This document shows positions 44,638 to 60,294 of a stretch of DNA of 64,000 bases, piece by piece. The notes under the pieces were generated by a model that saw nothing but the letters and a program-made list of their open reading frames with translations, did no database searches and was not told the DNA's origin. The DNA comes from Pseudoalteromonas sp. R3 (GTDB lineage Bacteria > Pseudomonadota > Gammaproteobacteria > Enterobacterales > Alteromonadaceae): NCBI RefSeq assembly GCF_004014715.1, contig NZ_CP034835.1:1240001-1304000 (forward strand), in the 5' to 3' direction. A program made the position numbers and the translations under genes. Every line of letters begins with the position of its first letter. Within the stretch, counting starts at the first letter, position 1.

Positions 44638-45780
44638 TTATAAGTGTACTATGCTGTCGGCATTGCCATCCGGATCACCGGATGCGCGGCCATCTGTTCT
44701 GGGGTTGCCATTGCTCATCATGATCACGGCACAAGCAGCGGGTGATGCCATCGAGGTACCTGACATTGTGGTTGTGCCTCCACCACTGCGTGTAGATAAA
44801 ATACTGACACCAGGTGCGGCGTAATCTACCGGAGGGTTACCATAGTTTGAAAAACTCGCGAAGCGATCATTAGCATCTGTGGCCGAGATAGTATAAACAC
44901 GCGGGTGTGAAGCACTGGCTGGTGAGACATTGCTGGCATGCTGGCTTTCATTGCCCGCCGCAATCACAAAGAAGGCGCCTGATTGTTGTGCTGCGCTTTC
45001 AACAGCATCGTTTAGCTCCTGGTTGAAGCCGCCACCAAGGCTCATATTGACACAGTCACCGGGTGATGCGTTGGCTGCAACATGGTCAATACCGGCTAAG
45101 ACACCTGACCAACTACCAGAGCCCCGGGAATCGAGCACTTTGACTGGAACGACGGTGGCGCCTGCAGCGACACCGACAACATCGATGCCATTATCTAGCG
45201 CTGCAATGGTACCTGCGACATGGGTACCGTGACCATTCCCATCGTCCACACCGGCATTCTTTCCTTTACTAAATGCGCTGAAGCCTCGGCTGCTGTCCAC
45301 ATTGAGGTCGTTATGGTCAACATCAATACCTGTGTCTATGACCCAGGCTGTATAGCCACTGCCATCAATTGGACCACCTACTCGGCTGACACTCCATGGA
45401 ATGGTCTGGCCTTGCGAACCACCACCGCCTGGCTTTCCGAGTTTTTTTGCCGGGCTGGCATACACGGCGCCGTCTGGGGTAAAGCGCATTGAAGCAGACT
45501 CAGCGGCAAACGTTGCACGTGCCTGCTCGCAGCTCATATTGACTGCCATGCCTTTCATTGCATGTTTATAAATGTGTTTTGCCTGAGCGTTTGCACGAGC
45601 CAGCAATCCTCTGGCCTTACCCTCAACATCCAGCTTTTCTGTTTTATCGTCAAATCTGACGATGCAGGTATTGTTGATAGCCAGCTGAGCGGCTGCTCCC
45701 TGATAATCGGGTTCAGACGCTGATACTGTGGCACTGGATAGAGCACTTACAATCGATAAGCAAATTAAAGAATGTTTCAT
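44638..45780 (-). CDS. Secreted subtilisin-like (S8) serine protease
   Basis: 380 residues. A signal peptide (MKHSLICLSIVSALSSATVSA) and a propeptide (to about 115) precede the catalytic domain. The triad is visible: Asp in AWVIDTGIDVDHND, His in GNGHGTHVAGTIAALDNG, Ser in GTSMASPAA, with the oxyanion Asn in IAAGNESQH. There is no C-terminal PPC or P-domain, so it is a minimal subtilisin. It converges on the HTH gene. Such proteases are typical of marine Alteromonadales and act outside the cell. Confidence 0.95.
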   Translation of the reverse strand: MKHSLICLSIVSALSSATVSASEPDYQGAAAQLAINNTCIVRFDDKTEKLDVEGKARGLLARANAQAKHIYKHAMKGMAVNMSCEQARATFAAESASMRFTPDGAVYASPAKKLGKPGGGGSQGQTIPWSVSRVGGPIDGSGYTAWVIDTGIDVDHNDLNVDSSRGFSAFSKGKNAGVDDGNGHGTHVAGTIAALDNGIDVVGVAAGATVVPVKVLDSRGSGSWSGVLAGIDHVAANASPGDCVNMSLGGGFNQELNDAVESAAQQSGAFFVIAAGNESQHASNVSPASASHPRVYTISATDANDRFASFSNYGNPPVDYAAPGVSILSTRSGGGTTTMSGTSMASPAACAVIMMSNGNPRTDGRASGDPDGNADSIVHL

Positions 45781-46208: not shown

Positions 46209-47384
46209 TTAGCTGCCGAATTCGGCCTGGTGAAGTTGGAACACTTCATTGAGTACCACAGTCGTAGCACGTTTGAAGAAATTGAAGTCGGTGGCTGTTG
46301 CACTGGTGTACGCACCCATCATGCGAGTGATGACCAGGTCACCATCTTCCAGTTGCGGCAGTTCAACGGCGTCACAGATCACATCTATGCTATCGCAGGT
46401 TGGCCCAGCCAGTACGCTTGGGTAAAGCACATCAGCGGTTTTCAGCGTACGTAGCGGGTAACATGCCATGTCGAACATCAGCCCACTGAAAGAGCCATAA
46501 ATTCCGTCGTCCAGATAATACCAGGTACGGCCTTCACGCTGTGCCTGTCCCATCACCGACGCAACGCAGGTCATCGCACCGGCAACAATAAACCGACCTG
46601 GTTCGGCAATACGCTGTACCGTCTCTGGTAGCTCGGCCAGTGCTGCGTTGATTGGCGCACAAAAAGCACGAATATCTACCTGGTTGCTGGCATAAGATAC
46701 CGGGAAACCTCCGCCGATATCCAGGCAGCTTAGCGCAGGCAGTCCTTCAGCTACTACGTCGTCCATCAGCTGCTTGCACGCCTGAATAGCCGCGACATAT
46801 TTGTCGGCATTGGCGGTTTGCGAGCCAACATGAAACGACAGGCCCTTCACCCGAATACCCCATTGCTGTGCCTGACGGATCAGGTTCATTGCATCGGCCG
46901 GGCTGCAACCGAACTTTTTCGACAGATCAGCATAGGCCTCGCTGTTACGAAAGCTTAGTCGGATCAGCACTTCGGCCTGCTCGGCAAATTCGCGAAACTT
47001 AGCCAATTCATTTTGGTTGTCGACCACAAACACCTGGCAGCCGTACTCCAGTGCATCAGCAATGTCACTGCGACGTTTAATTGGGTGCGTATGAATCGTG
47101 CACTCAGCCGGAACCCCTTGCTCACGGACCAGGTCGACTTCACCGCTGGTTGCCAGGTCAAAACAGGCACCCAGTTGCAGCAAAGTGCGTACTACTGCCG
47201 GATGAGGTAAAGGTTTTAACGCATAGTGTAAACGTACGCCAGGCAACGCTTCGGCAAGTGCCAGGTATTGATCACGTACTTGCTCGCAGTCGAGCATCAA
47301 CAGGGGTGATCCGTACTGCGCAACCAAATCGGTTACAAGGGTAGCGTCGATATCAAAATTTTGTACTTGAGGCTGAATAGGCAT
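46209..47384 (-). CDS. Group III PLP decarboxylase (ornithine/lysine decarboxylase)
   Basis: 391 residues from the ATG at 47384, preceded by GGAG at six bases; the longer frame to 47465 is not supported. Alanine-racemase-fold decarboxylase. The PLP lysine is in VRLHYALKPLPHPAVV, phosphate-binding residues in SFHVGSQT and GGGFPVSY, and the active-site Cys in AGPTCDSIDVICDAVELP. Eukaryote-type ornithine decarboxylases and bacterial lysine/ornithine decarboxylases share this form; which substrate is used cannot be told by eye. It gives putrescine or cadaverine, parallel to speA-speB. Confidence 0.9.
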   Translation of the reverse strand: MPIQPQVQNFDIDATLVTDLVAQYGSPLLMLDCEQVRDQYLALAEALPGVRLHYALKPLPHPAVVRTLLQLGACFDLATSGEVDLVREQGVPAECTIHTHPIKRRSDIADALEYGCQVFVVDNQNELAKFREFAEQAEVLIRLSFRNSEAYADLSKKFGCSPADAMNLIRQAQQWGIRVKGLSFHVGSQTANADKYVAAIQACKQLMDDVVAEGLPALSCLDIGGGFPVSYASNQVDIRAFCAPINAALAELPETVQRIAEPGRFIVAGAMTCVASVMGQAQREGRTWYYLDDGIYGSFSGLMFDMACYPLRTLKTADVLYPSVLAGPTCDSIDVICDAVELPQLEDGDLVITRMMGAYTSATATDFNFFKRATTVVLNEVFQLHQAEFGS

Positions 47385-48099
47385 AGCGACTCCAAATAGT
47401 ATCAGCGAATAACGACCTGCAGGCTCTATGTGTGATCCGTGCTTGTTTGTGGTGCATGGGATCACCCTTTCAGGTCTTGAGCAAAGCGACTCAGGTATTG
47501 ACGACGCATCAGCGTATTACCTTTACCCGAACCAGTTACAGATCCTGGATAGTTGCTCTATCGCCTTGCCACGGGGTGACCACATCATGACCGGCTCATT
47601 GACCGTCATGCTAAACACACCACCGCGATGTACTCGGATTGGCTATCTTCAGAAAACACGCAAATAGTAGGGGGCATGTTGCTGTTGTGCAAGTCTCATT
47701 TCGACGAGAAATTTTGCTTCTGAGTGACAAATTTATTTGTTGTGGATCAAGCTTTGCCCGCTTATGAAAGAGAGAAAAAATCACCTTCGATGAAGTTTCA
47801 TTATTTTTTGAACAGAATAAAACAGGGTCTCTTAGGGGCGAGTTTTGAAACACTAAGCAAAACTGTGCAATGCTTAGGGTGCTAGTTATAAGTCTCTTTA
47901 TGATATTGAATTAATTGGATATTTTTATGAGTTAAACAAGTAAGCCTACTTGTTTTTGAAATTTGTCGGACGTGAATTTCTCTTGCTATGGTGACCTCAG
48001 TTAGCAAGCAAGTGTTCGGCATTCACGTGAATATCGGCTCTGCACTGCGAAGTTTAAACATCACTATTTTTACTCGTTACTTTCTAAAAGGACATAAAC
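47385..48099. other. 715-base intergenic region upstream of the decarboxylase and an exported-protein gene
   Basis: Divergent promoters must lie here. The motif ACGAGAAATTTTGCT shared with the speA upstream region is at 47704-47718. An ORF of 79 codons at 47428-47667 has no ribosome site or protein-like character, so I do not call it. The part from 47880 to 48090 is AT-rich. Confidence 0.4.
47704..47718. promoter_or_regulatory. Motif shared with the speA upstream region
   Basis: ACGAGAAATTTTGCT, differing at one base from the copy 83 bases upstream of speA. Here it is 320 bases before the decarboxylase start. A polyamine-related site is inferred only from the shared context. Confidence 0.3.
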
Positions 48100-48939: not shown

Positions 48940-48968
48940 ACGCCGGGCTCAACTGAGCTCGGCGTTTT
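48940..48968 (+). terminator. Terminator after the exported-protein gene, overlapping the lodB-like 3' end
   Basis: CGCCGGGCTC, loop AACT, GAGCTCGGCG with one mismatch, then TTTTT. The stem overlaps the last codons of the convergent flavoprotein gene. Confidence 0.8.
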
Positions 48969-50106
48969 TGTGTGTCTGGCGCCGTTGCCAATAGGGTGAA
49001 TCGGGCCAGCGTTGTTCTTGTGCGTAGTAGTGGGTGCGATGAGTCAGATAGTGTTGCCAGATTGATTTAATCTGTGTCTGATGAAGGCGTGCAACCTCTA
49101 TTGCAGCGCTGGCGTCGGTCAGGCCGTGCTCGGTTAGACTGTTGGCCAGTTGCATCGCGGTTGCCATGGCATTGAACATACCTTGAGACGATAAAGGGTC
49201 AAAGCTGCAGGCGGCATCACCCAGCGCAGCCCAGCGGTGTCCGGCAACTTGAGTCAGACAGGTACTGTTGGCAGAGACCACCTTATGCAGCTGTATGGTG
49301 CCCGATTGCTCAATACCCGGTGGGAGTAATGCCAGCAGCCCAGGTTGTATACGGGCCTGGCGGCAAAACTGAGCCAGGTCATGTTGCAGACCTTTTTCGA
49401 GCAGATCGCTGTCGGTTTGTAGCGCCAGGACGCGTCGCTGTGCTGGTAATTTAGCGCTATACCACCAACCATTTGGACTGGTTTCTATGTGTGCGAGTTG
49501 ATTTGATTCATTACATGTCATGCTTGCCCATAGCGCTATTTGTTTATCCAGCACTTTGCGTTTCAGGCCAAGCTTAGTAGCAAATGCGCTGTGGCGTCCG
49601 GTTGCGTCAATAACGAAGTGACAGGGGACCGCGATGCTTTGCTGGTTGTCCTGTGCATGCCCTGAACCATGTGTTGCCAGATACAGCAGCCAGCCGTCGC
49701 TGCCTGGCTGCGCATCCAGTAATTTGGCGGGCCAGAGTGTCTCAATACCTTGTGCGACGACCTGCTCGCGCAACCAGTTTTCAAATCCGGCCCGATTGAG
49801 TTGCCAGCCCATGCCATCGGGATTACTGAGATTGTCGTTGACAACGCTTTGCTCAGCTCCCCAGCGGCTTTTTATGCCATAGTTTGGAATATGTAAATCC
49901 TGTTGCAGTTCAAAGCCCTTGAGCAGATTTAAGTTGCGCAAGATCCGCGCTGCAGCCGGCGGCAGGCATTCACCTATTTTTTCGGGACAGGCCGATTGCT
50001 TGTCAATCAACAATACCTGAAAGTGACGACTCAGCGCCAGGGCGGCAATACAGCCTGCCACCCCGGCGCCAACAATCGCAATCTGACAGTGTTTTACCTG
50101 TGTCAT
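48949..50106 (-). CDS. lodB: LodB-like FAD-dependent maturation enzyme
   Basis: 385 residues. FAD-binding Rossmann motif CQIAIVGAGVAGCIAALALS at the N-terminus, then GECLPPAAARIL, as in the tryptophan-halogenase/LodB branch of flavoprotein monooxygenases, and GHRWAALGDAACSFDPLSSQG (second FAD motif). LodB is needed to generate the cysteine tryptophylquinone cofactor of its LodA partner. The gene begins 11 bases after the lodA-like stop, so the two are one operon. The symbol follows from that pairing. Confidence 0.85.
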   Translation of the reverse strand: MTQVKHCQIAIVGAGVAGCIAALALSRHFQVLLIDKQSACPEKIGECLPPAAARILRNLNLLKGFELQQDLHIPNYGIKSRWGAEQSVVNDNLSNPDGMGWQLNRAGFENWLREQVVAQGIETLWPAKLLDAQPGSDGWLLYLATHGSGHAQDNQQSIAVPCHFVIDATGRHSAFATKLGLKRKVLDKQIALWASMTCNESNQLAHIETSPNGWWYSAKLPAQRRVLALQTDSDLLEKGLQHDLAQFCRQARIQPGLLALLPPGIEQSGTIQLHKVVSANSTCLTQVAGHRWAALGDAACSFDPLSSQGMFNAMATAMQLANSLTEHGLTDASAAIEVARLHQTQIKSIWQHYLTHRTHYYAQEQRWPDSPYWQRRQTHKNAELS

Positions 50107-50117
50107 TGCGTATGGCC

Positions 50118-53100
50118 TTATTTCAAGTCCTTAGGGAAATTTACGGCAAAGCGGCTGACCTTTTCAATGACCCCGAGGTCGACCCGCGAGCGTGACGTTG
50201 CCATCACAGGTCGTGCCGCATCTCGGCCATCCGGGCTGGGTACCAGGTTGGCTGCCAGCTCAGCAATGGTTTGCAGCTTGCCCTGCGCTGTGGTTTCGGT
50301 TTCACTGGCCAGGCCTTTACGGTGGTCTTCAGCGGTGATCCCAACTTGCATGGTATCCGGCAGATCTGCATCGTCTGCTGCACCCGGTCGGCCTTGTACC
50401 ACAGCCAGCTTATCGAAGTTGGTGATCATGCTGTTGATCTGTGCGGTATAGGTGGCGGGTTGACCATACAAGGGCAGGGCATCGAGCCAGTCGCTGCGGT
50501 AATTGAAAGCCTCAACTCGGGTTTGCGGATCCAGAGCCGGGTTGATGGCTTCTTCATAGCGCGCCACATTCAGGATGTTGTTCGGCACTCGTGCCGGCCA
50601 GAAGGTCGGTAGGTACGGGTCGTAATCAGGCGTGTAGCCATCGCGACAGCTGGCTGTGTCGGTTTGCCAGGGGATTGCCATCCAGCGTGTAATGCCGCCG
50701 GCAACCTGACCACCGAGGATCGGGCCCTGCGCCAGCGTAATGGTATCGCCGTTGATCTGGGCGCCATAATAGGTGGTGTCTTTACAGATCCCTTTATCGG
50801 CATGTTTAATTCGAAACGGTGCCATATACATGCCGGCAGTACGCATTGGCCAGGTCATTTCACAGCCTGGGTGGAAAGCGTCGGCCAGACAGAAATCTAA
50901 TGCCCCTCGGGTCAGCATATCCGGTTGCTCCGCCACTGGCACTTTATCTATGTCGTCGGGTTCAGCGGCATGCGGGCAAATAGCTGGGTCTATATAGTCG
51001 GCGGTAAAGTCTCCTTCAACCCACTGGTCCAGGAAAGACAGTTGCAGTGCTGACAGTGTGGAGTGCTGACGCTCCGAACCTGTTGGTGGAATAGACAGCG
51101 CATCGCCATATAGCCAGGGCCAAAGCTGTGCGGCCTGCGCACCTGGCTGGCCATAACGGCGGAAATTGTTCGACAGGGTACGGCGCAGCTCTTTATAGGC
51201 GGGAGAGGGGTTACCCAGTTTTGCTTTCCACTCTTCACTGGTGTAGTTAAAAGGTGCTTTAAATCCAAATCCGGCGGCAAAGCCAGCGTTGACCCATTGC
51301 AAGTCGGTCATTCGCTCGAAAATGGGTAAAATATCGTGCTTAAAAGACGGACGGGCCGGTCGGGTTAGCATACCAGCGTTAACGGCAACAGAGCGCATAA
51401 GGTCCCACATAGTGCGCACGGATTTTTGCATTGGTGCATAATCAGGTGGTGCGCAGACCACCCAGGCCGGGTCAACCTGCAATTTAACGCCTTCATACTC
51501 AACCTCGGCGGTAACCGGACCATCAGAAATGTCGTCGTGCCAGCCCTGGTTATTAGCAAAGGTAATGGCAATGTCACCATTAATATTACGCGATACGCCA
51601 TTGCCGCCAAGTACAATCAGGCGGCCCTGTTTATCTGACTTAAGCTCACCTAGGTAGACTTCCTCGCCCATAAACTCGCCCTGGAATTGCGGGCCCTCTT
51701 TCACTTTGGCTTTATTCAGCTTGTGCGTACCACCATCAATTAGCAGACGGTTGCGATCTGCTACATTATTGTTACGCAGCAGACTGGGCGGCGCGTCGGC
51801 GGCTTCCGGCACATCCAGCGCCAACTGAAATTCATACCAGGATGACTTCTGATTGGCCAGGTGTACCTGCCATTGAATCTTGGCGTTATCCATAGTCAGC
51901 TCTTTTACGGGCTTGCCCGCCGCGTTAAAGCCGTATATACGAAACTCAGCTGCCTGACGCTTAAGCTGGCCCTGGTCATCGCGATAGGCATCTTCTTCAA
52001 GTCGCGGCTTGGGGTTAGGTACCTGTGGGCCAATAAAGTACTCTTTACTGCTGCCTACTCGCATTACGCCAATGGGCGGGTAAATACCGGCACGGACAAT
52101 ACAATTGCTGTCTTCATCGCTGTTCGGGGTGAACTTTGGGTCGATGGCATTGGGTTCGTTCATCTGCTGGCCGTTGGCCTGGTGGCGGGTATTGGCACTG
52201 GCCTGATAAACGACTTTTCGGGCCTGAGCAATAGATCCCAGTGGCTCGTTTTCGGCCAGGGTTCGCCAGATATTGAAAGCCAGGTTGCGACCAAACTCGG
52301 CCTGGCCGATGGCACAGATATCTTGCTGCGGCAGTGTCAGGGTTGCAACTGGTTCGAACGGTGCATCCTGTTCTGGCCACACCACCATGGCGTTGTCGAT
52401 TGGGAAGTCTTCCTCGGAAGCATTGGGTGGGCGACGTTGGATTTCAAACACAAACTTGGCTTCTCCCTGACGCAAGCGAATTTGCAAGTCCTCCGCCAGA
52501 TAGTCATTCCCTTGTGCAGGTGAGCCCCGATAGGTATCAACCGGACGAATACGGTATTTAACGACATTCTGCTTGCCAAGTTTAAACGGCAGTATTGCCC
52601 AGTAGTGAGTACTCAGGCAACTGGCCTCGGGTTTGGTCATCTCGTCCAGTATGTCGGCTGTTTCTTTATTTTCGCTAAGGTAAGCCGGGTAGTCGCGGTC
52701 GATGACGCCGGCAGTGGTAAAGGCACACATTTGTGAGGCGTCGCGAACAAAGAAGCGGTCGATGTTCTGCATAATAAAGTCGACATTGTCGCTGTCACCC
52801 AGCAACTTTTTGCCTTTCACACCGAACAATTTGATCCCGACCCCTAAAGTGGTATGCAGATCTGGACTATTCGGCGTGGTATCGCTGGAAAAGCGCACCA
52901 CACAGTCGTAACTGGCGGGGTTGGCAAATACGCCGGCCTGTAGCGCTTTATCGAGTTTGCTGTGGATCTCGAATTTACCATAGGCTATGCCGTGCTGCTT
53001 ACGAAATACAGCGCGCTCTGCGGGCTGCTGCCCGCGTTCAATACGGGTTTTCTGGCCCATTTCCACAAACATTTCTTTCAGGCGCTGGGTTGCCAGTTCA

Positions 53101-53237
53101 ATGGGTTGGAAGTCATCATCACCTGTCCAACATTTTACATTATTGGCCGTCGGTGCATTCTTCATATTCTTTTTCAAATACTTAGGGTTTACCAGTTCAC
53201 CTTGTTGTTGCTTATTACGTTTTTTCTTATCGCTCAT
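50118..53237 (-). CDS. Catalase-like domain fused to a LodA-type quinoprotein oxidase
   Basis: 1039 residues. The first roughly 340 residues resemble a haem catalase-like fold: FRKQHGIAYGKFEI (candidate distal His), CVVRFSSDTTPNSPDLHTTL, VDFIMQNIDRFFVRDASQM and EPLGSIAQARKVVYQASANTRH; I did not find the proximal Tyr motif of true catalases. From about 385 the sequence is LodA/GoxA-like: the quinone-forming Cys in CLADAFHPGCEMTWPMRT and Trp in WMAIPWQTDTASCRDGYTPD, plus YLPTFWPARVPNNIL. LodA-type enzymes oxidise amino acids such as lysine, releasing ammonia and peroxide, often with antibacterial effect. The LodA part alone is about 650 residues, a little under the usual length. Substrate unknown. 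Confidence 0.85.
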   Translation of the reverse strand: MSDKKKRNKQQQGELVNPKYLKKNMKNAPTANNVKCWTGDDDFQPIELATQRLKEMFVEMGQKTRIERGQQPAERAVFRKQHGIAYGKFEIHSKLDKALQAGVFANPASYDCVVRFSSDTTPNSPDLHTTLGVGIKLFGVKGKKLLGDSDNVDFIMQNIDRFFVRDASQMCAFTTAGVIDRDYPAYLSENKETADILDEMTKPEASCLSTHYWAILPFKLGKQNVVKYRIRPVDTYRGSPAQGNDYLAEDLQIRLRQGEAKFVFEIQRRPPNASEEDFPIDNAMVVWPEQDAPFEPVATLTLPQQDICAIGQAEFGRNLAFNIWRTLAENEPLGSIAQARKVVYQASANTRHQANGQQMNEPNAIDPKFTPNSDEDSNCIVRAGIYPPIGVMRVGSSKEYFIGPQVPNPKPRLEEDAYRDDQGQLKRQAAEFRIYGFNAAGKPVKELTMDNAKIQWQVHLANQKSSWYEFQLALDVPEAADAPPSLLRNNNVADRNRLLIDGGTHKLNKAKVKEGPQFQGEFMGEEVYLGELKSDKQGRLIVLGGNGVSRNINGDIAITFANNQGWHDDISDGPVTAEVEYEGVKLQVDPAWVVCAPPDYAPMQKSVRTMWDLMRSVAVNAGMLTRPARPSFKHDILPIFERMTDLQWVNAGFAAGFGFKAPFNYTSEEWKAKLGNPSPAYKELRRTLSNNFRRYGQPGAQAAQLWPWLYGDALSIPPTGSERQHSTLSALQLSFLDQWVEGDFTADYIDPAICPHAAEPDDIDKVPVAEQPDMLTRGALDFCLADAFHPGCEMTWPMRTAGMYMAPFRIKHADKGICKDTTYYGAQINGDTITLAQGPILGGQVAGGITRWMAIPWQTDTASCRDGYTPDYDPYLPTFWPARVPNNILNVARYEEAINPALDPQTRVEAFNYRSDWLDALPLYGQPATYTAQINSMITNFDKLAVVQGRPGAADDADLPDTMQVGITAEDHRKGLASETETTAQGKLQTIAELAANLVPSPDGRDAARPVMATSRSRVDLGVIEKVSRFAVNFPKDLK

Positions 53238-54092: not shown

Positions 54093-54569
54093 TTAAAAAT
54101 CATCAACTTCCGTGACCATTACGTCGGCTACACCGTCAAAATCGGTATCGGCTATCACTGTATCAGCTTCGCCATCGCCATCGGTGTCCATGACCATCGT
54201 ATCGATCACACCATCGCCATCTGTGTCCATAGCAATAGTATCAATCACACCGTCGCCATCAGCATCCACCGCTACCGCATCAACCAGGCCATCGCCGTCA
54301 GCATCAATCGCAACGGTATCAACTAACCCATCTCCATCGGTATCAACGGCTACCGCATCAATATAGCCATCGCCGTCGGTGTCCGCCGCAACCGTGTCTA
54401 TGTATCCATCCCCATCTGTATCGATAGCAACGGCGTCAATATAACCGTCGTTATCACTGTCAATGACGACGCTGTCGACAATGCCGTCGCCATCTAAGTC
54501 AGCGGCAACACCATCACTGTAACCATCGCCATCTAAATCGACCTGATCACCCTCATAAATTTCGTCCAT
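54093..54569 (-). CDS. Tandem calcium-binding repeat protein (11 x 13 residues)
   Basis: 158 residues, almost all repeats of the form VAxDTDGDGYIDT, with Asp at positions 1, 3, 5 and 9 of each loop as in thrombospondin-3 or dockerin-type Ca sites (D-x-D-x-D-G-x-x-D). No signal peptide is visible. The protein is extremely acidic and may be unfolded without Ca. The repeat is preserved in DNA as a 39-base unit. It precedes the 170-residue gene by 26 bases on the same strand, suggesting an operon of two. Function unknown. Confidence 0.8.
   Translation of the reverse strand: MDEIYEGDQVDLDGDGYSDGVAADLDGDGIVDSVVIDSDNDGYIDAVAIDTDGDGYIDTVAADTDGDGYIDAVAVDTDGDGLVDTVAIDADGDGLVDAVAVDADGDGVIDTIAMDTDGDGVIDTMVMDTDGDGEADTVIADTDFDGVADVMVTEVDDF
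54120..54545 (-). repeat. 39-base coding tandem repeat, about 11 units
   Basis: The unit encodes VAxDTDGDGxxDT and recurs about every 39 bases with silent and conservative differences between copies, so it is older or less homogenised than the fimV arrays. Confidence 0.85.
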
Positions 54570-54887: not shown

Positions 54888-56610
54888 ATGACTTATTGCT
54901 ACTTATTTGAAGCCAGGTCGATCCAGCATTATCTGTTTCGCACCGGCAAACTGCGCGACGTGGTCGCCGCCAGTGAGCGGCTTGACCGCTTAATTGATTC
55001 CTCTGAACACAGCGTGCTCTATCAGGTGTTACAAGCTACGCAACTGCGCCACGATTTGCTGACTGAACACCCAGACCCCGACCCTCAGGTACGCTTTTTT
55101 CGCTGTAAAGGCGGTGCGTTTTATGCTTGCAGCGACGACAAGGAAACGCTGCAAACTTTGCGCGACAGTTGGACCTTAACTTTTGCTCAGCTTTATCCGG
55201 GGCTGGAATATTGTGATGCGCTGGCGCAGGGGCAAAGCGTTGCACATGCTAAACAGGCCGCGCTTTATTTATTGGCACAGGCGCGTAATTTTCAGCCTGC
55301 AAGCTTGCCGGTTGCAACAACCCTGTGTGCCCGGGCGCAGCGCACCGGATCGTTGGCAGTAAAGCTGCGCCACGAAGAGCTGGTGGACTTGCCCAGTTGG
55401 TACAACGAGCAGGCATATAATCACTGGGACCTGCGCGATAAAGACGGTGCGTTGCAGGCGCGCTTTAAACCGACCGGGGAGTTACTGGATCCCAAACTGG
55501 TTGACAAAATCGCCTTTCCTCTTGATCTGGAGTCTGAGTTCCCCTTAACCCCTCGCGCGACAGCAGATGACTCAGAGTCTGAGCTGCACATGGACATTGC
55601 ACTGCTGCACATAGATGGCAATGGCATGGGCCAGGTGTTACAGGATCTGGATAAGGCTTTGAGTGGTGCAGGTGATGACGTGTATTGCAGCGCATTCAGG
55701 GATTTTTCTGAGGCTATGGCCACTGCCACACAACAAGCGGCTCAGCAGGCAACGTTGTGGCTCACCAAACGGGTATTGTCAGAGCAAGCAGAAAACAGCG
55801 AACTGACTGAGCTACTGCTGCCAATGCGCCCGCTGGTGCTAGGGGCGACGACGTTACCTTACTGTGCCGTGCTGACCTGGCTCTGGAATACACTGAGCAG
55901 TTTTGTGCGGCTTTTGAGCAAACGTCGCGGATTGCACTTAAACCAACCTATGAGGTTATCAAAGCGGCCAACGCTGAAAGCACATTTGGCGGCAAGCTCA
56001 CAGCCAGTGCCGGGGTCTTAATCCAAAAGGCCAAACATCCTTTCACGCACAGCCATGAAATGACCGAGCAGTTGTGTAAACAGGCCAAGGTACTGACCAA
56101 GCAGGCCAATGGCACAGCGGCACTGGCCTTTGTTCAGGTCTCCAATACGGTCAGTGATGGACTAGATACTTTCAGGGCCCGTCATTTGAGCTGCACAGTG
56201 GTGAGGACGTTCTGCATACCAGCCTGGGTGCTTACCTGTTAAGTGAGTATGGGTCGTATCCGACCTTAAAAGCACTGAACGCTTTGTTTGATTTACTGGC
56301 ACAGGCGTGCACACCTATGACGCTGAGTAAGTGGCGAGAGGTATTAACGTATCTTGGCATGGGCGACCTGGCTGAGGTGCAGCGCGTGATCTATCGCGAC
56401 TTTGCGCTCAATGGCAACAAAGCACAGCAGCAAAAACTGGCGCAGGCTTTTGCGCAGCTCAGCGCGCGGGACAAAGAGCCACAGGAAAGCTGGCACTGGC
56501 AGGGCGAAAACGGCTGGGTTACGCCACTTAGCGACTTGATGGTGCTCGAAAAGCTCAATCGCCTGAGCGTGAAAAGTATTCAGGCAAAGCAACAACCGGA
56601 GGTGTCGTGA
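54888..56610 (+). pseudogene. cas10: Cas10, type III CRISPR large subunit without HD domain, two frameshifts
   Basis: Starts MTYCYLFEARSIQHYLFRTG, a Cas10 palm beginning with no N-terminal HD nuclease. The first frame reads to LLPMRPLVL at 55841; one G added to GGGG (55842-55845) then gives GGDDVTLLCRADLALEY, the cyclase motif, and TASAGVLIQKAKHPFTHSHE, the characteristic Cas10 strand. A second lost base near 56170-56177 (an added G or T) restores the D4-like helical tail to the stop at 56610. The corrected protein is 574 residues. Cas10 makes cyclic oligoadenylates on target RNA binding; absence of HD implies no target DNA cleavage by this subunit. Both lesions look like missing bases. Confidence 0.9.
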
Positions 56611-57218
56611 TGACTTATGAACTGACCTTTACCTTACACAGTGACTGGCATATTGGCAGCGGTGAAGAGGGCGGCAGCTATGCCGATGCGCTGGTGGCCA
56701 AATCAGCACAAGGGTTGCCCTATATTCCGGGTAAAAGCATTAAAGGGTTGCTGCGTCATGCTTTTGAGACGGCTGCGCAGCATAACTGGTTTGGTGAACA
56801 TGGCGAAGACGTTGCGACTTACCTGTTCGGGCATGAAGGCAAACAGGCCGAGTGCAGTCAGGGCGTGATCCAGCTCAGCAGTGCCGAACTTAGTAGGGCG
56901 GAGCAACAATTTTTGACTTTTCACAAGTCTCATCAGAAATACCTTTATCGGGTGCTTCAAAGTACTGCAGTCAACGAGCGTGGTGTTGCCAGAAACACCA
57001 GCTTAAGAGCCACGCAAGTTGTGGTCCCCGTTACTTTGGTGTGTGAGCTCACTTTTAATCATGAGCACCCCAACTGGGCGCGATTACAGACACTGCTCAC
57101 TGAAGCTGAGCTGGTGCAGTGTATTGACGATGCGTTATTGCTGATCACTGAGCTTGGAGGTAAGCGTCAGCGTGGGTTTGGTCAGGTAACAGTGACCCTG
57201 AATAAGGAGGCGGCATGA
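56610..57218 (+). CDS. Cas7-type RAMP backbone protein (Csm3-like)
   Basis: 202 residues from the ATG at 56610, overlapping the cas10 stop (TGATG), with GGAGG seven bases upstream. Typical RAMP: HIGSGEEGGSYADALVAK, where the Asp (residue 26) aligns with the catalytic Asp of Csm3/Cmr4, then GLPYIPGKSIKGLLRHAFE, the C-terminal loop GGKRQRGFGQV being the glycine-rich RNA-binding motif. It should form part of the repeated backbone over the crRNA and cut target RNA at 6-base steps. Subtype assignment is from the neighbours. Confidence 0.88.
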   Translation: MTYELTFTLHSDWHIGSGEEGGSYADALVAKSAQGLPYIPGKSIKGLLRHAFETAAQHNWFGEHGEDVATYLFGHEGKQAECSQGVIQLSSAELSRAEQQFLTFHKSHQKYLYRVLQSTAVNERGVARNTSLRATQVVVPVTLVCELTFNHEHPNWARLQTLLTEAELVQCIDDALLLITELGGKRQRGFGQVTVTLNKEAA

Positions 57219-58840
57219 CCATTCAATATTTTGTGCTCACCACACTCGACCCCATTGTGGTCAGTGAAAGCAATGCAACCGTGAATAACCAGATGAGCCT
57301 GGACTTTATTCCCGGTAGTGCACTGCTGGGTGCGCTGGCGGGACGGCTGTATCGCGAACTGAGTGGCGAACAAAGCTGGGCGTTATTTCACAGTGGTACC
57401 TGGCGTTTTGGTCCGTGTTATCCGCTCCAGGATAACCGACTGGCGTTGCCTGTGCCATTGTCCTGGCATCATCAAAAGCATGCGCCGGTTGTGGAACCAC
57501 AAACATCGCAGTTTGCAGAGCACATCACCAACCATGCTCACACAGGTTTTGTGCGCGAGGCGAATACCCAGTATGTGCAAATGAGTGCCGACTACGTAAC
57601 TGCAGATGCGCAGCGGATCAGGGTAAGTCGCGGACAAAACACCAAGACGGCGCTTGAGTCTGAAACGGGTAAAGTAGCCCCAGGTCAGCTGTTTACTTAC
57701 GGGCACATCGACCCCGGACAGCAGTTTGTGGGGTTTGTTGCCATGGATCCGCAAGACACTGAATTACAACAGCGCGTGACGAATGCCCTCAACGGTGAAT
57801 ACCGAATTGGCCGGGCACGCTCAAATGAATATGGCCGGGTGCGCATACAGACTATTGAGTATGCGTTGCCAGAAGCAAGCGATGCGCCAGACAGGCTGAC
57901 GCTCTGGTGTTTAAGTGATTGCGCTTTTGTAGACGCGCAGGGGATGCACCATGTGATGCCCTGTGGAGAAGATATTCATCCTCAGCTTAAAGGTGCCAGC
58001 CTGGATACGCGCCATAGTTTTATTCGTGCCCATACCCTGAGCCGCTTCAATCAAAAGCGCGGCGGCTTTGACAGTGAGCAGCGGGTGATCACCCGTGGCA
58101 GTGTGCTGAGTTTTCGTTTATCCAGCGCAGTGCCCCGGCAGGTATTGCATGAGATCAGCCAAAACGGAATAGGGACAGACAAGCAATTTGGCCAGGGCTG
58201 GGTGATGGTCAATCCAGCGTGGGCAACACAGAGTAATCCGTGTCGCGAAGCGGTGTTCTGCTGTGATGACATCCCGACCTCCGGCGCGCAGTCACTTAGC
58301 GATGAAGCCATCAGCAACTTGTCAACGCCATTAATCGACTGGCTGCGCGCGCAAGGTACCCGAGAGCAACAATTGCGTGAGCGAGCCATGTGGGTTCGTG
58401 ATCAGGTCACGACCTTGCTGACTTACTATCGTCAGGCACGCAGCTACAATCATGTGTTACCCAGCTACCAGGCTGGCCCGTCGCAGAATCAGTGGCGGCG
58501 TATTGCGGATTTGCTTAATCATGCCTCCGATGACTGGTTTGAGCGGGCGTTTGGTCGTGACGGCGTTGCCGACAAAGACAGCGGCCACATCTGCAAAGCC
58601 AGCAACGATGAATACGGCTGGGGCATTCGCTGGCAGGGCGTGGATGGTTTTACTCATTTTGCTGAAGCCAGCAAGTCGTTGTTTTGTAACGCTGATGGTT
58701 CAGCCATAGAGCTGGTACTGGCTCGCCAGCTGCTGGAGCAGATCTGCCGCTACGAATTGGCTACGCCCGGCGGGTTAAAGGACATGCAGGCACTGCTGGA
58801 CAAGCAAAAGGCACAGAGTAACGAGGAGGTCACACAATGA
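57215..58840 (+). CDS. csx10: Csx10-like RAMP, Cas5-type subunit of type III-D
   Basis: 541 residues overlapping the previous stop by four bases. N-terminal RAMP fold with PGSALLGALAGRLYRELSG, then WRFGPCYPLQDNRLALPVPLSWH, and IGRARSNEYGRVRI as the Gly-rich loop, which together recall Csx10, the type III-D counterpart of Cas5 that caps the 5' handle of the crRNA. A second Gly-rich segment GTDKQFGQGWV follows around 330. The C-terminal 170 residues are helical. Identification rests on motif pattern, not alignment. Confidence 0.75.
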   Translation: MTIQYFVLTTLDPIVVSESNATVNNQMSLDFIPGSALLGALAGRLYRELSGEQSWALFHSGTWRFGPCYPLQDNRLALPVPLSWHHQKHAPVVEPQTSQFAEHITNHAHTGFVREANTQYVQMSADYVTADAQRIRVSRGQNTKTALESETGKVAPGQLFTYGHIDPGQQFVGFVAMDPQDTELQQRVTNALNGEYRIGRARSNEYGRVRIQTIEYALPEASDAPDRLTLWCLSDCAFVDAQGMHHVMPCGEDIHPQLKGASLDTRHSFIRAHTLSRFNQKRGGFDSEQRVITRGSVLSFRLSSAVPRQVLHEISQNGIGTDKQFGQGWVMVNPAWATQSNPCREAVFCCDDIPTSGAQSLSDEAISNLSTPLIDWLRAQGTREQQLRERAMWVRDQVTTLLTYYRQARSYNHVLPSYQAGPSQNQWRRIADLLNHASDDWFERAFGRDGVADKDSGHICKASNDEYGWGIRWQGVDGFTHFAEASKSLFCNADGSAIELVLARQLLEQICRYELATPGGLKDMQALLDKQKAQSNEEVTQ

Positions 58841-60294
58841 AGCACTATTTATTAGCCAGATTACTGGTCAGTAATGTCGCGCCGATGGCCATAAGCTCAG
58901 GCGGACGTGAGCATAATTTTGATACGCAGCTGGCACGCGATGCCAATGGCTTACCTTATTTGCCCGCAACCAGTGTTACAGGGGTATGGCGCTCGTTAGT
59001 TTTGCGCGAACTGGGTAAAGCACAGTGCGATGCCATTTTTGGCAGTTCAGAACTGCGCTCGTCACTGACTGTCAGTCATGGTGTGGTGGTGGATAAACAG
59101 CATCAGCCAGTGCGGGCCTGTCAGAGCCAGCAGCAGCTGGAGCAGGATGATTACCTGGCCAGCTTGTTGCTGGCCAGGCCTCACCATCGCGAGCGAGTTG
59201 CCATCAACGACCGGGGAGTAGCCAAACATAACGCTAAGTTCGATCAGCTATTGTTGCCCGCCGGAGTCCGCTTTGTTCTGACGGTTAAGTATGAGTTTGA
59301 CTCGGCGCACCTCGCGCAGAACGAAGCAAAGCGTTATTTTGCTCAGGTGCTATCTGTCTGGCAACAAAGGCAATTTGCACTGGGTGGCTCGACTCGCAAC
59401 GGTTTGGGGCAAATGGCGTTGCTGGGGCTGGACGTTAAGCACGTACCGCTGCAAAAAACCCCCGAACATGACCCGCGCACGGCACTGCGTGCGTTTTATC
59501 AGCCAGACTGCAACCTCGCTGCACAAACAAAGCCGTTTTCAGAAGTACAAGATTGGCTGCCAGACGGCAAGTTACCCGCAGCCACCAGGGCGCTGTGCGA
59601 AATGACGGTAAAAGGGCTGGATTACTGGCGCTTTGGAGCCGGGGTGAGTCGACTTAAATCACCGGCTGAGGGGAGCGCAGCTCGTAGCCCGGATATTTTG
59701 TGTTACAGCGAGCCAAGGGTGACATGGGACGAATCGGGGCCACAACTTAAAGGTCAGCACGTGGTGCTGTGCGGCAGTGCCATTAAAGGCATACTGGCGC
59801 ACCGGGTGGCATTTCATTATTGCCGCCTGAACAAGCTATACGCCGAAGCCCGAGCACAGGACAGCCATGAAGACTGGCAAAAACGCGTTGCCGGCGTGGA
59901 TGAGTTGTTTGGCCACCTGGATGAGCAAGAACACGACAACTCATTTGCCGGCTGTCTGATGGTGGATGACTGCGAAGTGGTGTACCAGGCGAAAGATATT
60001 CAGGTGCGCAGCCACACCAGCCTGGACCGTTTTACCGGCGGGGTTCGCAAGGGCGCACTGTATACCGAAGAGCTGCTGTATCAGCCGACTTTGACCATAC
60101 GAGTCTGGCTGGCTAATGAGGCCAGATTTAAGCAACTGGACACAACCACCAAACAAGCCCTCAAAGCCACCCTCAATGATCTTGAGCAGGGCTTACTGCC
60201 GCTCGGGGCTGGCAGCGGAAGAGGCACCAGCCTGCTGCAACCTGGCGCACAAAGCCGGGAAGATTCACAGATGTTAAAGGAGATAGCGCTATGA
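58837..60294 (+). CDS. Double-RAMP protein (fused Cas7-like domains)
   Basis: 485 residues overlapping the previous gene (ATGA). Domain 1 (about 1-215): SSGGREHNFDTQLARDANGLPYLPATSVTGVWRS has a possible catalytic Asp, and ALGGSTRNGLGQM is its Gly-rich loop. Domain 2 (about 250-485): VLCGSAIKGILAHRVAFHY, HTSLDRFTGGVRKGALYTEE and LPLGAGSGRGTS. Two full RAMP modules in one chain provide two backbone positions at once, as in type III-D and III-E relatives. Confidence 0.85.
   Translation: MKHYLLARLLVSNVAPMAISSGGREHNFDTQLARDANGLPYLPATSVTGVWRSLVLRELGKAQCDAIFGSSELRSSLTVSHGVVVDKQHQPVRACQSQQQLEQDDYLASLLLARPHHRERVAINDRGVAKHNAKFDQLLLPAGVRFVLTVKYEFDSAHLAQNEAKRYFAQVLSVWQQRQFALGGSTRNGLGQMALLGLDVKHVPLQKTPEHDPRTALRAFYQPDCNLAAQTKPFSEVQDWLPDGKLPAATRALCEMTVKGLDYWRFGAGVSRLKSPAEGSAARSPDILCYSEPRVTWDESGPQLKGQHVVLCGSAIKGILAHRVAFHYCRLNKLYAEARAQDSHEDWQKRVAGVDELFGHLDEQEHDNSFAGCLMVDDCEVVYQAKDIQVRSHTSLDRFTGGVRKGALYTEELLYQPTLTIRVWLANEARFKQLDTTTKQALKATLNDLEQGLLPLGAGSGRGTSLLQPGAQSREDSQMLKEIAL

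Follow-up and report, generated by a model that had tools for sequence, protein, structure and literature searches.

We describe a gene in a 64,000-nucleotide stretch of Pseudoalteromonas sp. R3 DNA (NCBI RefSeq assembly GCF_004014715.1, contig NZ_CP034835.1, positions 1,240,001 to 1,304,000; hereafter the window) that encodes a catalase-like haem domain and a LodA-type quinoprotein oxidase in one chain. The catalase-defining residue, the histidine on the distal side of the haem, is replaced in this domain and in every lodA-linked domain of the two sets that we compared, despite the name 'catalase' that some public records give to such proteins. The features of the locus are listed below; domains that go with a lodA gene are called linked and the others free, CTQ is cysteine tryptophylquinone, PlGoxA is GoxA of Pseudoalteromonas luteoviolacea and cAOS is coral allene oxide synthase (AOS).

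50118..53237, minus strand: lodA-type gene with an N-terminal catalase-like domain
52143..53039, minus strand: catalase-like haem domain (approximately residues 67-365)
53004..53006, minus strand: Phe78, in the position of the distal His of catalases (His75 in the human enzyme) by alignment and fragment model
52992..52994, minus strand: His82, a second conserved His (82/83 linked domains, 23/30 free relatives)
52893..52895, minus strand: Arg115, predicted haem-anchoring Arg (cAOS R102)
52881..52883, minus strand: Asp119, at Arg115+4; counting puts it on catalase Val116, with gap placement uncertain
52764..52769, minus strand: Gln157-Asn158; Asn158 is at the distal Asn (cAOS N137) and Gln157 is mostly specific to the linked clade
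52206..52208, minus strand: Tyr344, which would ligate the haem on the proximal side (Y353 in cAOS), part of the motif R340-xxx-Y344-x6-R351
51453..52082, minus strand: LodA_N (PF17990), residues 386-595, Pfam 264 bits
50598..51068, minus strand: LodA_C (PF18417), residues 724-880, Pfam 131 bits
50658..50660, minus strand: Asp860, aligned with PlGoxA Asp678; Asp in 94/94 rows
50646..50648, minus strand: Cys864, predicted CTQ cysteine by alignment to PlGoxA; Cys in 94/94 rows
50598..50600, minus strand: Trp880, predicted CTQ tryptophan by alignment to PlGoxA; Trp in 93/94 rows, one gap
48949..50106, minus strand: lodB/goxB-like flavoprotein of 385 residues, predicted CTQ maturase, 11 bp after lodA

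A catalase-like domain fused to a LodA-type oxidase

The preliminary description of this DNA had read the gene as a catalase-like N-terminal fold fused to a LodA-type oxidase, and Pfam, the predicted fold and the single open reading frame of 1039 residues (ATG at 53237) all agree with it; plus-strand frame 1 of the same interval contains stops. The Pfam Catalase model (PF00199) matches weakly, at residues 73-175 with 32 bits against a cut-off of 25, and the best sequence-profile match in the PDB is the 33-kDa catalase-related protein of Mycobacterium avium subsp. paratuberculosis (E 3.4e-14). Structure searches with both a full-length model and a model of the N-terminal fragment identify the fold as that of a catalase; the first structural match of the full-length model is coral AOS, which is not among the 50 rows listed for the fragment. 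In the fragment model the first residue, R75, falls on residue 72 of human catalase, as predicted, and the last, R351, on residues 367-368, against a predicted 365. The LodA half is modelled poorly (pLDDT below 50 across residues 787-874, and a root-mean-square deviation of 10-15 for the Foldseek superposition of the model on GoxA), so that no distance between the haem site and the CTQ can be given.

We exclude the artificial joining of two genes, which the preliminary description had named as a possible refutation; nothing was found in favour of it, and the fused frame recurs in 9 of 60 Pseudoalteromonas genomes, at lengths of 1010-1077 residues, and at 70 of 80 loci that carry the domain. 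A near record, of Pseudoalteromonas rubra S2599 (L045), shares 99% identity with the window protein across the haem domain and 98% across the LodA half. In a protein database search 7996 candidates were scored, of which 2676 reached E <= 0.001; the 120 matches listed are all 979-1120 residues long with both LodA domains, and the counterparts of F78, R340 and Y344 are present in 120/120 whereas the Pfam catalase mark is on 4/120, which indicates that Pfam under-recognises the haem domain.

The remainder of the protein was said to carry the Cys and Trp of the CTQ, and alignment places these at C864 and W880, opposite PlGoxA residues that we take to be the CTQ pair of the solved GoxA structure. 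H789 aligns with PlGoxA H583, and both D678 and H583 appear in PDB titles; in LodA itself the CTQ residues are C516 and W581, according to a passage of PMC4417212. The Cys/Trp pair, LodA_N together with LodA_C and the LodB-like neighbour would thus place the oxidase half in the LodA/GoxA family of CTQ enzymes, with which it shares the CTQ residues, the active-site Asp and a LodB-like partner, whereas nothing in the solved proteins aligns with residues 1 to ~375 of the window protein. The 1039-residue protein scores 416.5 bits with the NCBIfam GoxA model (cut-off 750) and 153.1 bits with the LodA model (cut-off 600), and therefore no substrate is assigned from family; by these equivalog models it would be neither a lysine oxidase LodA nor a glycine oxidase GoxA proper. 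The best NCBIfam matches of the adjacent flavoprotein are LodB (227 bits) and GoxB (210.5 bits), both below the cut-off of 400.

The distal histidine is replaced while the proximal side is kept

We aligned the haem domain with canonical catalases and with SrpA-type and y4iL-type proteins. An unfused y4iL-type example reads R-D-V-H-A-K-A-H-G where the window domain reads R-A-V-F-R-K-Q-H-G, and because the two stretches match without a gap, the catalase distal His corresponds to Phe78. The fragment model leads to the same place, since R75 superposes on residue 72 of human catalase, 51 of Proteus mirabilis, 53 of Helicobacter pylori and 79 of CATPO, which puts F78 on residues 75, 54, 56 and 82, respectively. 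The distal His of human catalase is His75, as stated in a passage of PMC8773446, and a passage of PMC10836395 counts CATPO His82 among the residues lining the channel and haem cavity. The fragment model also matched PDB 3hb6, titled 'Inactive mutant H54F of Proteus mirabilis catalase', which is a swap of the Phe78 type.

The preliminary description had the missing element on the wrong side of the haem: the proximal Tyr motif that it failed to find is there as R340-K-V-V-Y344, aligned with the proximal Arg-xxx-Tyr of 7/7 canonical catalases, and R340 and Y344 occur in 83/83 linked domains, whereas the distal His, present in 7/7 canonical catalases, is what is missing. The residues R64, R102, R360, N137 and Y353 of cAOS, named in a passage of PMC5617202, correspond to R75, R115, R351, N158 and Y344. 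In sum, the domain has the catalase fold and has lost the distal His, but it retains Asn158, the proximal Arg-Tyr pair and the residues predicted to anchor the haem. A further, less certain difference concerns Asp119, which falls at Val116 when counted from the shared R-F-S motif (Val in 7/7 canonical catalases, gap placement variable). Val116, equivalent to Val123 of CATPO, lies in the narrowest ring of the main catalase channel according to a passage of PMC10836395, and part of PMC8773446 gives it as invariable in catalases studied before, except for one case of Ala.

Conservation was compared between 83 distinct linked domains (mean pairwise identity 52%) and 30 free relatives, the numbers left after removal of two extra copies of the window gene and four rows: L006, really the linked gene of genome G186, L139, a misaligned SrpA, and L141 and L144, which duplicate L027 and L024. 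R75, F78, R115, D119, Q157, F163, R340, Y344 and R351 are present in 83/83 linked domains, and S117 and N158 in 81/83 and 80/83; among the free relatives F78 is found in 0/30, D119 in 0/30 and Q157 in 1/30. The p value of 2e-7 for this comparison is not clean, as the nine places were chosen for their role in catalases after most had been seen to be conserved, and four of them lie in search patterns. The underlying 80 loci were found with two peptide patterns spanning R115-D119 and Q157-F163, so that conservation there is partly built in; F78, R75, H82, R340, Y344 and R351 lie outside the patterns.

A set free of these patterns gives the same division. It consists of 50 loci from domain searches of genomes, restricted to matches with an extracted locus: 15 linked, six of them near-identical Pseudoalteromonas copies, and 35 free. 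Phe is at position 78 in 15/15 linked and 0/35 free domains, the latter having His in 32, Asn in two and Gln in one; Asp is at Arg115+4 in 15/15 and 0/35, subject to the alignment caveat on its gap; and the linked domains have Asp119, Gln157 and Asn158 in 15/15 and Ser117 in 14/15. One of the searches gave 30 loci, 10 of which are in this set; among the 20 others, all partial matches, 19 have His at position 78, one (L209) is unreadable and none has Phe. We note that the free y4iL-type proteins L019, L040, L020 and L142 have Asn or Gln at the distal place; the distal His has therefore also been lost outside the lodA-linked clade.

These residues bear on the suggestion, made in the preliminary description, that the domain protects the oxidase from its own product by catalase activity. 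That a weak catalase still removes the H2O2 made next door is distinctly unlikely in our estimate. The catalase fold, the complete proximal side and the close linkage to a presumed peroxide producer speak for it, as does the variability of catalase turnover on this fold, which differs ~100-fold between the coral AOS and hydroperoxide lyase (HPL) domains in a passage of PMC5617202. Plain catalase self-protection is nevertheless disfavoured because the distal His is Phe in 83/83 linked domains and the title of 3hb6 calls the same swap inactive; moreover, the near-invariable Val116 is Asp by count, and two proteins of the catalase-peroxidase type are encoded elsewhere in the host (two frames with four PF00141 matches between them). 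The window gene has the only PF00199 match in the host genome. We conclude that the haem domain probably does something other than destroy peroxide.

The altered domain is linked to lodA and forms one clade

When loci were sought by the haem domain alone, 70 of the best 80 of 130 were fused, nine encoded the domain in a gene of its own immediately upstream of lodA and one ended at a contig edge, so that lodA is fused or adjacent at 79/80. In genome G334 the altered domain has its own gene, which follows lodB and extends the C-terminus by about 290 further residues (L017 1432-3339). By record titles, linked domains occur in Pseudomonadota, Bacteroidota, Myxococcota, Acidobacteriota, Actinomycetota, Cyanobacteriota and Bacillota. 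In a tree of catalase domains, 53 linked rows form one clade against 30 free and six SrpA rows, with SH-aLRT support of 100 (quick method, columns 76-84 masked, with a warning of long branches among the free rows). The distances of the two domains are correlated (mirror correlation r 0.62 over 53 pairs, against a maximum of 0.17 in 2000 permutations, host kinship not corrected).

Fusion is nonetheless patchy among LodA genes: 9/39 are fused in 60 Pseudoalteromonas genomes, 2/13 in 398 genomes from across the phylum, where one more has the domain in its own gene, and 4/15 in 385 genomes of another class. Five genomes of that other class (G200, G514, G627, G717 and G827) have an unfused LodA and a distant relative of the domain elsewhere; four of these relatives have His at the distal place, and that of G627 is the unreadable L209. 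The LodA tree, which includes 15 rows of unknown linkage, requires 11 changes of the label 'linked', at least 8 of them by starred branches, and loss or gain therefore recurs. A fair reading of the two trees is that the altered haem domain arose once, together with LodA, and was then repeatedly lost or transferred. Two fused genes are disrupted in the LodA half, by an in-frame stop in P. rubra S2676 (L047 10392-10394) and by a frame change at about 2936-3122 of L122; these are either pseudogenes or assembly errors.

Since haem domain, lodA and lodB make up one module, it could be that the haem domain assists in building the CTQ with peroxide or O2 as oxidant, an idea for which MauG, which matures a quinone by means of haem in another system, offers a parallel. 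We consider this improbable, as LodA genes lack the domain in 10/13, 30/39 and 11/15 cases in the three surveys. In addition, the Trp is dihydroxylated as CTQ forms. In a related enzyme the dihydroxylation is reportedly the work of a flavoprotein (passage of PMC7876137), and a LodB-like gene is present here. It is more improbable still that the electrons of the CTQ go to the haem instead of to O2. Quinohaemoprotein amine dehydrogenase, which combines haem with an electron path, would be the model for such a transfer, but its haem is of c-type, the potential of a haem with a Tyr ligand should be low, and the electron acceptor of LodA-family enzymes is O2. That dehydrogenase does contain CTQ, as a passage of PMC7876137 states.

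Proposed function

Our tentative proposal, to which we give somewhat less than an even chance, is a peroxide-consuming two-domain enzyme in which a CTQ oxidase feeds a Tyr-ligated haem domain of catalase fold that carries out a peroxidase- or peroxygenase-like step. The LodB-like flavoprotein encoded next door would mature the CTQ of the C-terminal half, which would oxidise an amine or amino acid and release H2O2. The N-terminal half would bind haem through Tyr344 and, lacking the distal His, should be a poor catalase; it would instead consume the peroxide in acting on the oxidase product or on a co-substrate, with Asp119 (or His82) possibly replacing the distal His as acid-base. Asp or Glu serves as acid-base in DyP peroxidases, chloroperoxidase and unspecific peroxygenases, and retention of the Asn and Ser, together with the Asp, suggests a pocket that can still bind and activate peroxide. 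That the production of peroxide is coupled to the haem domain, as the preliminary description had it, remains plausible and gains from the close linkage to lodA, whereas its catalase form is disfavoured.

Several observations weigh against a peroxide-consuming enzyme of this kind. Because 30/39 LodA genes of the genus are without the haem domain, the oxidase does not need it, and no second substrate was found. Nor was a conserved third partner gene found within 8 kb: among the 25 largest clusters, those that reach at least five genera correspond by coordinates to the module or to its opposite-strand or alternative-frame readings, and the next real neighbour cluster reaches four. The place of Asp119 is open to question, as an Asp stands one position later (Arg115+5) in 5/35 free relatives, some of which may have an extra residue, and in one alignment MAFFT opens a gap immediately ahead of Asp119. 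Of the 85 linked rows of an earlier, larger set, two carry Ala and one carries Phe at position 158. Lastly, coral AOS keeps its distal His and so offers no precedent for a His-less pocket.

An unlikely but serious alternative is that the domain binds haem without catalysis, as a scaffold for assembly or as a haem or peroxide sensor that tunes the CTQ oxidase. It fits with the loss of the distal His across the whole linked set, with the inactivity that 3hb6 ascribes to H54F and with the dispensability of the domain in many relatives; set against it, the conservation of N158, S117, D119 and Q157 is beyond the need of a mere scaffold, and although it is partly built in by the patterns, the pattern-free set agrees. 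The preliminary description had also allowed for a peroxidase or a scaffold, a caution that we support in keeping both readings, although it was tied to the absence of a proximal Tyr that is in fact present. Should the domain prove active, peroxide would be made and spent in one chain, a pairing useful for biocatalysis and for probing how far the chemistry of the catalase fold can change; should it prove inactive, both the annotation and the idea of self-protection would be corrected.

Relation to known systems

The fusion architecture has been in print since 2015. Table 3 of Campillo-Brocal et al. includes 21 LodA-like proteins with pfam00199, all of group III and with the architecture of the window protein, among them a 1039-residue protein of P. 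rubra ATCC 29570 that is most likely the ortholog of the window gene; a match of the fused domain to cd08152 (y4iL-like) is noted and experiments are called for (relevant parts of PMC4417212). The same parts make no mention of the distal His, a single clade or linkage. A literature search for an altered distal site in LodA-linked domains found no description, and passages of PMC4699246 do not contain the word catalase. What is new is the loss of the distal His, its division between linked and free domains and the single clade.

We take the cd08152 label from PMC4417212; kinship with the y4iL-like proteins rests on alignment and tree. They share the ungapped stretch R-x-x-[H/F]-x-K-x-H-G, but the unlinked members sampled differ in the distal residue as counted above and in having no Asp at Arg+4. 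The M. avium protein (3e4w/3e4y) has the same minimal catalase fold, but has H-A-K where the window protein has F-R-K, and its 320 residues include no fused oxidase. Chanoclavine synthase (9jdb/9jdc) has, by its structure titles, a catalase fold in a biosynthetic enzyme, although a fungal one. A comparable layout is found in the coral fusions of AOS or HPL with lipoxygenase (1u5u, 3dy5), in which an N-terminal minimal catalase fold with Tyr-ligated haem precedes a C-terminal peroxide maker, and which indicate that such a domain order can work as a two-step enzyme; they differ in the distal His67 that AOS retains, in the lipid hydroperoxide substrate and in the lipoxygenase partner. The window protein has Val77-Phe78 in place of T66-H67 of cAOS, and so lacks the distal His and preceding Thr that mark the AOS and HPL domains of these fusions. 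That the linked domains constitute a new class of Tyr-ligated catalase-fold peroxidase or peroxygenase, with the distal His gone, the acid-base moved to an Asp in the old channel and H2O2 supplied by a CTQ oxidase of the same chain, we regard as doubtful, if worth stating.

Other genes of the window and host genome

Matches to the haem domain in the host genome are confined to the window gene. A second LodA-family gene (L002, G000:C1:235934-236572), in a frame of 819 residues, groups with a genus copy, L172. Two genes upstream of the oxidase gene, 54093-54569 on the minus strand encodes a 158-residue protein made up mostly of D-x-D-G-D-G repeats (EF-hand models). RAMP-superfamily genes occupy 54888-60294 on the plus strand, with PF03787 in three, one of them below the cut-off, and therefore probably form a CRISPR-type cluster of type III. 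The first open reading frame (54888-56021) has no Pfam match, and on visual inspection it seems to be interrupted ahead of 56284. On the other side of the oxidase gene, the minus strand encodes a subtilase-family protease (44638-45780) and an enzyme of the ornithine/DAP/arginine-decarboxylase family (46209-47465).
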